Source: Intestinibaculum porci
Lineage (GTDB): Bacteria > Bacillota_I > Bacilli_A > Erysipelotrichales > Coprobacillaceae
Reading direction: 5' to 3'
Assembly (NCBI RefSeq): GCF_003925875.1
Contig: NZ_AP019309.1
Span: 3,038,001-3,102,000 of the forward strand
Length of the DNA: 64,000 nt
Positions 36,424-44,625 of this stretch are shown one piece after another (within the stretch, counting starts at the first letter, position 1; each line of letters starts with the position of its first letter). Both the position numbers and the translations under genes were made by a program. The notes under the pieces were generated by a model. That model had not been told where the DNA came from and did no database searches. It saw only the letters and a program-made list of their open reading frames with translations.

Positions 36424-36523
36424 ATCCTGGCGTTATTCTACCATATATAGCTTTTATTTCCTATACTAGCTTCTTTCACATTTTCTTCCATTTTCCCCTG
36501 AAGATCTTCCCATATGTCTTTGT

Positions 36524-36624
36524 TAGGATATAGGTGTACTCAGAGATGAGTACTTCTTCATAAATTTCCCTTCATAATTAAAAATCCCAATTGGAGAACC
36601 GGACGTCCCATCCGGTTCTCTTTT
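36524..36624 (+). ncRNA. Small RNA candidate, unit 1 of a four-member family
   Basis: A -10 box TAGGAT (36524-36529) precedes a 5' hairpin GTACTC/GAGTAC (36536-36553). Next come an unpaired stretch holding TTTCCCTTC and AATCCCAA, and a nine-base terminator stem GAGAACCGG/CCGGTTCTC (36594-36620) with loop ACGTCCCAT and a T-run. RNA length is about 90. No plus-strand gene follows. Units 2, 3 and 4 share the order and sequence. Confidence 0.65.
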
Positions 36625-36683
36625 CATTTATTCACTCACACAATCTTCTGTTTTTCTTTGAACAATCAGCCATAACTGTTTGT

Positions 36684-36784
36684 TAGGATATACGTGTACT
36701 TAGAAGTAAGTACTTCTTCATAAATTTCCCTTCATAATTAAAAATCCCAAATAGAGAGCCGGACGTCCCATCCGGTTCTCTTTT
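36684..36784 (+). ncRNA. Small RNA candidate, unit 2
   Basis: TAGGAT box at 36684-36689. The 5' hairpin is GTACTT/AAGTAC (36696-36713): compared with unit 1 a C-G pair has become T-A, a compensatory change that preserves pairing. The terminator stem is GAGAGCCGG/CCGGTTCTC, where one A-T pair is now G-T. The unpaired C-rich stretch is unchanged. Spacing from unit 1 is 160 bases. Confidence 0.65.
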
Positions 36785-36843
36785 CACGTTTCCTTTCACA
36801 TATTCTTCCATCACTTCTTGAATAATCAGCCATATCTTCTTGG

Positions 36844-36941
36844 TATGATATACGTGTACTCAGAGATGAGTATTCTTCATAAATTTCCCTTCATAAAAAT
36901 CCCAATTGTGAGAACCGGACGTCCCATCCGGTTCTCTTTTT
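36844..36941 (+). ncRNA. Small RNA candidate, unit 3
   Basis: TATGAT box at 36844-36849, hairpin GTACTC/GAGTA(T) at 36856-36872 lacking two bases next to the stem, then TTTCCCTTC and AATCCCAA, and the terminator GAGAACCGG/CCGGTTCTC at 36910-36936. Upstream, AATCAGCCATA is shared with unit 2. Spacing from unit 2 is again 160 bases. Confidence 0.65.
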
Positions 36942-39227: not shown

Positions 39228-39665
39228 AAAAGATACTCTCTTAACGCTATTCATGACTTCGATACTTGTGATCGGTATTCAGGCTAGCTATTGTTTGCCC
39301 TTTTGTTTTGACTTTAACTTGCTCGAGGTTCCATTCCCGGCGACTTTATGTCCGTTTCTTTCACCCAATCAAAACTCAACCACGTGCTCGGATTTTAAGA
39401 TTCCAATCCATTACCAGACTCATAATCTGATTCAACTTCATGTTCACTTCGCACTACTTCTGGCTTTTCCGTATCTTCAACCTCTTTATGGATCTCTGAT
39501 CACTTTGTTATGCCATGCTCATGAATATATGTTATTTGAGTATCCTTTGATCGAAGGATCTTTTCTCCTTCTTTCTAATTACAATATAGTCTCTTTTGTG
39601 ATCGCTTTCAAGTATTTTTTATTGATTTCATCAAGTATATTTGAATACAAGGATGCATAAAAACA
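39228..39665 (-). repeat. 438-bp direct repeat, copy 1, with minus-strand promoter (RNA candidate)
   Basis: This stretch recurs at 40367-40804 with only about three or four single-base differences. On the minus strand it carries TTGAAA (39606-39611) and TATATT (39583-39588) with a 17-base spacer, so transcription would start near 39576 and cross the repeat towards 39228, where a seven-base T-run lies. The minus strand has no long open frame. The plus-strand frame has no ribosome binding site. I therefore think it may encode a structured RNA of roughly 350 bases. No known family recognised. Confidence 0.6.
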
Positions 39666-39722: not shown

Positions 39723-40055
39723 TTAACTTTCTAATATCGCCAATTTACTGTTTTGATTATTTAATGCTTCTATCTTCTTTTGAAGATCAACAATAAGCAT
39801 ATGCTGATCCATATTTTCCTTTTTGACTCTAGCTAATTCCGCCAATAATCTCTCCTCAGCAGTTGAAGATCCATTTTCTTTTTTCTTTTGTGGTCCTTTT
39901 TTACCATTAGGAATCATCTTCCCCGTTTCCGGATCAATCTTACCAATCAAATTTCGTTTAGAACGTGCCTGTTCCTTTTCTGAATCCCAGTAACTCTTTG
40001 ATTCATAAACATAGATAATACCAATAGTCTTAGTCGTTCTTTTAATAATTGCCAT
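39723..40055 (-). CDS. Transposon-associated small protein (remnant context)
   Basis: 110 residues. The N-terminus (MAIIKRTTKTIGIIYVYES, then SYWDSEKEQARSKRNLIGKIDPETGK) is the type found at the start of some DDE transposases or as a separate short first gene in insertion sequences. The C-terminal part is a predicted coiled coil (EERLLAELARVKKEN). No catalytic domain follows in this frame; 60 bases on, the 438-bp repeat begins. An AGGTGC site precedes ATG 40055. I read this as what is left of a mobile element. Confidence 0.5.
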   Translation of the reverse strand: MAIIKRTTKTIGIIYVYESKSYWDSEKEQARSKRNLIGKIDPETGKMIPNGKKGPQKKKENGSSTAEERLLAELARVKKENMDQHMLIVDLQKKIEALNNQNSKLAILES

Positions 40056-40366: not shown

Positions 40367-40804
40367 AAAAGATACTCTCTTAACGCTATTCATGACTTCG
40401 ATACTTGTGATCGGTATTCAGGCTAGCTATTGTTTGCCTTTTTGTTTTGACTTTAACTTGCTCGAGGTTCCATTCCCGGCGACTTTATGTCCGTTTCTTT
40501 CACCCAATCAAAACTCAACCACGTGCTCGGATTTTAAGATTCCAATCCATTACCAGACTCATAATCTGATTCAACTTCATGTTCACTTCGCACTACTTCT
40601 GGCTTTTCCGTATCTTCAACCTCTTTATGGATCTCTGATCACTTTGTTATGCCATGCTCATGAATATATGTTATTTGAGTATCCCTTGATCGAAGGATCT
40701 TTTCTCCTTCTTTCTAATTACAATATAGTCTCTTTTGTGATCGCTTTCAAGTATTTTTTGTTGATTTCATCAAGTATATTTGAATACAAGGATGCATAAA
40801 AACA
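40367..40804 (-). repeat. 438-bp direct repeat, copy 2, with minus-strand promoter (RNA candidate)
   Basis: Same sequence as 39228-39665. Promoter elements recur at 40722-40727 and 40745-40750. One difference lies in a small hairpin (ATCCTT with AAGGAT): in the minus-strand RNA the change gives a permitted G-U pair, whereas in plus-strand RNA it gives a C-A mismatch. That weakly favours the minus strand as the functional one. Confidence 0.6.
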
Positions 40805-44388: not shown

Positions 44389-44530
44389 ATAATACAAACC
44401 TCCTGCCCTTATTCTATCAAATATAAATCAAAAGATCTTTAAACCTAAGAATCTTGAAAAATTTCTTATCAAAACAACATCATCACATAATCTTACGTAA
44501 AGATACGACAGTGCATCGACATCTGCTTGA

Positions 44531-44618
44531 TATGATATACCTGTACTTAGAAATAAGTACTTCTTCATAAATTTCCCTTCATAAAATCCCAATTAGAAAG
44601 CCGGTACGCCGGCTTTTT
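44531..44618 (+). ncRNA. Small RNA candidate, unit 4
   Basis: A diverged relative of the three units at 36524-36941. TATGAT box at 44531-44536, hairpin GTACTT/AAGTAC (44543-44560), the same TTCTTCATAAATTTCCCTTC stretch and AATCCCAATT, then a terminator with a different stem (AAAGCCGG/CCGGCTTT, loop TACG) and a T-run. It runs on the plus strand against the flanking minus-strand genes. Upstream of the box, similarity to the other units fades. Confidence 0.65.
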
Positions 44619-44625
44619 ACGTGTA

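Follow-up and report, generated by a model that had tools for sequence, protein, structure and literature searches.

What do the repeated units in this DNA encode? Three of them stand in tandem, at 160 bp per unit, and a fourth lies further along the window (the whole stretch of 64,000 nucleotides that was analysed). A first-pass annotation had described them as a multi-copy small-RNA family. Our analyses indicate that each unit is probably an independent gene for a trans-acting sRNA of 80 to 120 nt, which would block ribosome loading without Hfq in the style of the Listeria LhrC RNAs and the streptococcal csRNAs. Gene structure, stem conservation, copy number, shared upstream boxes, the lack of a detected Hfq and complementarity to start regions were all read from sequence; we infer expression, repression, the regulator and a bias toward exported proteins in vivo.

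Predicted small RNA genes in the window

The coordinates by which units u1, u2, u3 and u4 had been placed (36524, 36684, 36844 and 44531) are those of the -10 hexamers themselves (TAGGAT, TAGGAT, TATGAT and TATGAT), each of which is preceded by TGN and so forms an extended -10. Every unit continues with a 5' hairpin, an unpaired anti-RBS stretch, in which UCCC occurs twice, and a terminator (Table 1); the terminator loop also contains UCCC in u1 to u3, and in u4 it reads UACG, without UCCC. A 21-nt core, TTCATAAATTTCCCTTCATAA, is the same in all four units, while shuffled sequences averaged 0.01 matches, and four were not reached in any of 100 shuffles. When folded separately, each unit produced the 5' hairpin, the open linker and the terminator with z from -4.0 to -5.4, and terminators exceeded the chance expectation (5 against 0.3). 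The shared layout described in the first-pass annotation therefore agrees with coordinates, core and folding alike, its terminators are present, and the change from C-G to U-A that it had pointed out in the 5' stem is real. No sigma-70 -35/-10 pair was found over u1 to u3, where the -35 consensus is absent. Scans of the window returned no Rfam member at family thresholds and no tRNA.

Table 1. Coordinates of the predicted elements of the four units within the window
Feature	Position	Strand	Remarks
u1 class I upstream box (TTCACATTTTC TTCCATTTTCC CCTGAAGATCT), putative response-regulator site	36475..36507	+	starts about 60 nt before the hairpin, likewise in other copies and genera
u1 extended -10 TGT-TAGGAT, without -35 consensus	36524..36529	+	
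u1 sRNA, about 90 nt (predicted)	36536..36624	+	folding; covariance model E 3e-19 (rough)
u1 5' hairpin GTACTCA-GAGA-TGAGTAC	36536..36553	+	folding, compensatory changes
u1 anti-SD/anti-AUG core TTCATAAATTTCCCTTCATAA	36557..36577	+	
u1 second unpaired UCCC	36585..36588	+	
u1 terminator hairpin, loop with UCCC	36593..36621	+	
u2 class I upstream box	36635..36667	+	
u2 extended -10 TGT-TAGGAT	36684..36689	+	
u2 sRNA (predicted)	36696..36784	+	hairpin 36696-36713, core 36717-36737, UCCC 36745-36748, terminator loop with UCCC
u3 class I upstream box	36795..36827	+	
u3 extended -10 TGG-TATGAT	36844..36849	+	
u3 sRNA (predicted)	36856..36940	+	hairpin 36856-36873, core 36876-36896, UCCC 36900-36903, terminator 36910-36936
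u4 class I upstream box, degenerate past first repeat	44482..44514	+	
u4 extended -10 TGA-TATGAT	44531..44536	+	
u4 sRNA (predicted)	44543..44621	+	hairpin 44543-44560, core 44564-44584, UCCC 44587-44590, terminator about 44594-44619

The neighbouring genes bear on whether the units could be leader or attenuator elements acting in cis on adjacent genes. Upstream of u1 to u3 lies a divergent DUF2232 gene and downstream a convergent EamA gene; u4 has an alpha-amylase gene on one side and a GH1 gene on the other. All these genes occupy the opposite strand, and u4 runs into the 3' end of a gene on that strand. Neighbours also vary from copy to copy, and each unit has promoter-like and terminator elements of its own. 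A cis-acting role is thus very unlikely, even though a hairpin with a terminator is an attenuator form too and several type D copies of the family lie upstream of paralogous genes.

The other strand offers a further reading, small antisense ORFs preceded by a strong ribosome binding site (AAGGGAAATTTATGAAGAAG...), the plus-strand structure then being incidental, since the reverse strand of u1, u2 and u4 reads as SD plus ATG AAG AAG. This reading was rejected because a 1-nt deletion shifts the frame in u3; relatives lose the ATG or the frame, the changes in the stems compensate each other at the RNA level, and we regard such ORFs as extremely improbable.

Elsewhere in the window, an exact 300-nt direct repeat (39228-39527 and 40367-40666, 1139 bp apart) encloses a 110-aa ORF (39723-40055) without a Pfam match. 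The repeat pair with its ORF is possibly a mobile-element remnant.

Stem conservation and distribution of the family

Covariance model R1, whose seed was five identical-core copies and one relative from another genus, matched divergent copies at 2671 and 3177 kb in this genome and at least 10 copies in the congener (G001). It also had matches in G009, G011 and G014, with a tandem array of three in G014. The refined model R2 found members in many other genera of this bacterial family. Covariance-model E-values, all of them rough, went down to 1e-9 in other genera. The R2 search of 395 genomes of the class gave almost nothing convincing beyond the bacterial family, and matches in G266, G459 and G503, without box and hairpin, were not accepted as members. 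A search of other genomes with the exact core returned only four unrelated chance matches.

With a clear hairpin, a UCCC linker, a terminator and a box all required, the count for this genome is about 21 copies (nine of promoter class I and about twelve of class II). In the congener at least 15 were found. The first-pass annotation was right that the family is multi-copy but overlooked everything beyond the four units, namely two further identical-core copies at 304 and 306 kb, which flank a MATE gene, three divergent copies of the promoter class of u1 to u4 (class I), and about 12 copies of class II.

The two stems speak for selection on structure, which had been proposed from differences among the four units. 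Compensatory changes were found at 17 of the 17 base pairs of both stems among the 30 sequences of the R2 alignment, with pairing in 95.6% of cells and a covariation of 0.875 against at most 0.154 when partners were slid; the alignment was fitted to the model, and single sequences give the same folds without it. Relatives that drop the 5' stem and retain only the terminator had been named as an observation that would count against the family; instead, both stems are kept by compensatory change. The 5' hairpin loop is mostly GNRA-like, and most copies have an extra UCCC in the terminator loop. A sub-type in G006, G007, G040 and G042 has UUUUCCCUUC within the 5' hairpin loop, a layout nearer still to LhrC.

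Loops, cores and box spacing also persist between genera, and the flanks of dispersed copies are unrelated. Together with the compensatory stem changes, this argues against a repeat element of little or no function spread by duplication or mobile genes, an explanation to which we give a very small chance despite the 160-bp tandem units, the location of d1 to d6 next to copies of one gene family, and the duplication of one copy's promoter beside an IS-like insertion.

Several copies have unusual surroundings. Near-identical class II sRNAs at G000:C1:1084160-1086953, 1603022-1604496 and 2218436-2220058 adjoin copies of one gene family (about 350 aa, no clear Pfam match), and sRNA and neighbour gene seem to have been amplified together. 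At G000:C1:2668446 and 2671169, a duplication covers one sRNA copy's class I promoter along with the 5' portion of a DinB-like polymerase gene, and in one copy of the pair a transposase-like gene (617 aa) replaces the sRNA just past the -10.

Upstream boxes and the candidate regulator

A conserved box about 60 nt upstream, absent from the first-pass annotation, accompanies the sRNA genes. The boxes are direct repeats with a period of about 11 bp at a fixed distance upstream, and they fall into two classes. The class I box, [AT]TCACATATT..., runs in three 11-nt steps and starts 60 to 62 nt before the hairpin in all genera. The class II box, GTTCAYATNNNNTTCAYA, is followed after about 9 nt by TATAWT and has the repeat form TTCAYA-N5-TTCAYA.

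A matrix built from class II boxes, just two of them from this genome, was used alone, and its best new matches were four sRNA genes with hairpin, UCCC and terminator, three of which the covariance model also found. Since the scan for class II repeats recovers further copies, promoter and RNA evidence confirm each other. The class II pattern was counted 23 times in this genome and its reversed form once; type D sRNA genes follow about 10 of the 23, and a few others stand before protein genes, which have no common theme. Places with no sRNA downstream (2556400, 1682837, 2425221, 1184865 and others) were put down to chance or other promoters, and the place at 421846 was left out of the sRNA count as doubtful.

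The geometry of the boxes is that of OmpR/PhoB-family sites, and the missing -35 consensus likewise suggests that these promoters may be controlled by an OmpR/PhoB-type response regulator. A link to the Pho regulon was considered, given the pst operon near the copies at 304-306 kb, but rejected, as the pst promoter (pstS) has no box. A class II-like box also stands ahead of a short conserved ORF ending in LQRWHVEA in both species (G000:C1:1498095 and G001:C205:6004), which may encode a protein of the same regulon.

Predicted pairing with start regions

The core, UUCUUCAUAAAUUUCCC, has as its complement an ideal Shine-Dalgarno sequence plus an AUG-AAG-AA start. Taken backwards it gives AUGAAGGGAAAUUUAUGAAGAAG, in which an SD and a spacer precede the start codon and two lysine codons; the type D counterpart reads GGGAAGGGAAAUUUAUAUG. 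Within the linkers, UUUCCC and AAUCCC are the anti-SD elements and CUUCAU and CAUAUAAA the anti-start elements. The proposal that UCCC pairs with GGGA-bearing leaders accordingly stands as regards complementarity, but the match is not to GGGA alone and reaches the start codon and codons 2-3.

Target statistics were computed on 917 genes, about 39% of the genome, with simple gene calling and a crude signal-peptide heuristic. The duplex energy of the u1 linker was -13.3 kcal/mol at the 917 start regions compared with -9.3 inside genes. Over shuffled cores the mean duplex energy had an advantage of only about 1.6 sd, so the preference for start regions is partly one of composition. Signal-peptide-like proteins made up 22 of the 46 top targets (top 5%), while 30 shuffled cores averaged 11.3 and reached 17 at most; the enrichment held within genes starting with MK or MN (p 0.0016), and for a congener sub-type the count was 25 of 46. 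Among the top predicted targets are lipoproteins, an OppA-like binding protein, further secreted proteins and MATE exporters. An OppA-like lipoprotein gene at 2729822 and secreted-protein genes at 85625 and 1141015 belong to the predicted targets. A search for near-perfect targets returned exact 14-mer matches at the sRNA genes themselves only, matches with two mismatches showed a small excess (100 against 75 for the reversed pattern), and pairing of the terminator loop by itself showed no preference for start regions.

The lack of a close mRNA match, along with a short motif repeated in loops and linker and the many copies, would also fit RNAs that capture an RNA-binding protein through UCCC and the GNRA-capped hairpin, as a CsrB-like sponge whose mRNA pairing is incidental. 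We consider this unlikely, since the core orders anti-start and anti-SD elements at the spacing of a start region, exported genes are enriched above shuffled cores, and the motif is not the GGA that CsrA needs. Pairing with mRNA, the reading that we prefer, would proceed without Hfq: none was found in six genomes by a search that was positive in five named control genomes.

Comparison with known sRNA systems

The first-pass annotation had likened the units to RsaE/RoxS of Staphylococcus and Bacillus, of which essentially one gene per genome is known. Pairing of UCCC with SD sequences is known for RsaE (PMC4132741) and predicted here; there is no Rfam model match here. LhrC and the csRNAs are closer analogues because they have in common multiple copies, response-regulator promoters and two stems with a UCCC or anti-AUG stretch between them.

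The LhrC family of Listeria monocytogenes (LhrC1-5, Rli22, Rli33-1) is multi-copy and partly tandem, with RNAs of 105-121 nt that bind the SD region through three UCCC sites in loops and linker; LisRK, a two-component system, is required, the promoters need elements at about -55 to -75, and the targets are surface proteins and OppA (PMC4132741, PMC8079631). Here too, paralogous copies, some in tandem, each have a promoter and terminator, the upstream element is at about -60, and the predicted targets likewise include OppA-like and exported proteins. In contrast to LhrC, there are about 21 copies rather than 7, the core adds anti-AUG sequence, the boxes form two classes, and Hfq was not found in this lineage. 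The UCCC sites are in the linker and usually the terminator loop, with a 5' loop site in sub-type E of other genera only. The Rfam LhrC model gave no match even at E up to 10, nor at E up to 1 in another search.

In the csRNAs (RF02379), anti-SD and anti-AUG elements lie in an unpaired stretch between two stem-loops, and the genes have a CiaR box TTTAAG-N5-TTTAAG followed after about 10 nt by the -10 (PMC3091779). Our family shares this arrangement and, in class II, the box geometry; its boxes are TTCAYA-N5-TTCAYA (class II) or of the TCACATATT type (class I), not TTTAAG, and its copies are far more numerous. RF02379 scored 18.8 bits (E 7.9), where its gathering cut-off is 57, and scores for RNAIII and AaHKsRNA41 were weak, far under the gathering scores. 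FopS of Bacteroides comprises 12-15 paralogous sRNAs per genome that act near the start codons of surface-transporter mRNAs (PMC11697453). It resembles our family in being large and paralogous, a likeness of architecture; phylum, sequence and associated protein (RbpB) differ. Judged by sequence, the family would work like LhrC and the csRNAs and be a member of neither, given the lack of a covariance-model match, the different box and core, and no detectable sequence kinship.

Proposed mechanism and significance

An OmpR/PhoB-type response regulator would bind the direct repeats of about 11 bp and turn on a promoter in which an extended -10 stands without a -35. In the resulting RNA, the 5' hairpin and terminator would frame the single-stranded anti-SD/anti-start stretch, which would pair with several mRNAs across SD and start codon and block ribosome loading without Hfq. 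The sub-family in the window would prefer AUG-AAG-AA, common in signal-peptide proteins and lipoproteins, and the many copies may supply dosage and varied seeds, as in LhrC and the csRNAs. A more tentative idea, which we hold to be possible rather than probable, is that of an envelope-stress circuit independent of Hfq, in which one or two response regulators control some 20 paralogous sRNAs and these reduce exported-protein synthesis class-wide by pairing with SD-AUG-AAG-AA, the start typical of signal-peptide genes. It would be a Firmicute counterpart of the control of outer-membrane proteins by RybB and MicA.

The design is known from Listeria and streptococci, and this family appears to be undescribed and unusually large; in the open-access literature we found neither a description of it in this lineage nor any sRNA family described for the gut Erysipelotrichales-type lineage. 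If our reading is correct, the paralogous sRNA set of these gut bacteria ranks among the largest known (about 21; LhrC 7, FopS 12-15). Such a set would offer a test of RBS-blocking sRNA action without Hfq and of why bacteria multiply such genes, and also of whether a seed matching codons 2-3 selects exported proteins as a class.

The copies at G000:C1:404672 and 3177173-3177427 adjoin GAPDH and pyruvate formate-lyase genes, hinting at a link to central metabolism.
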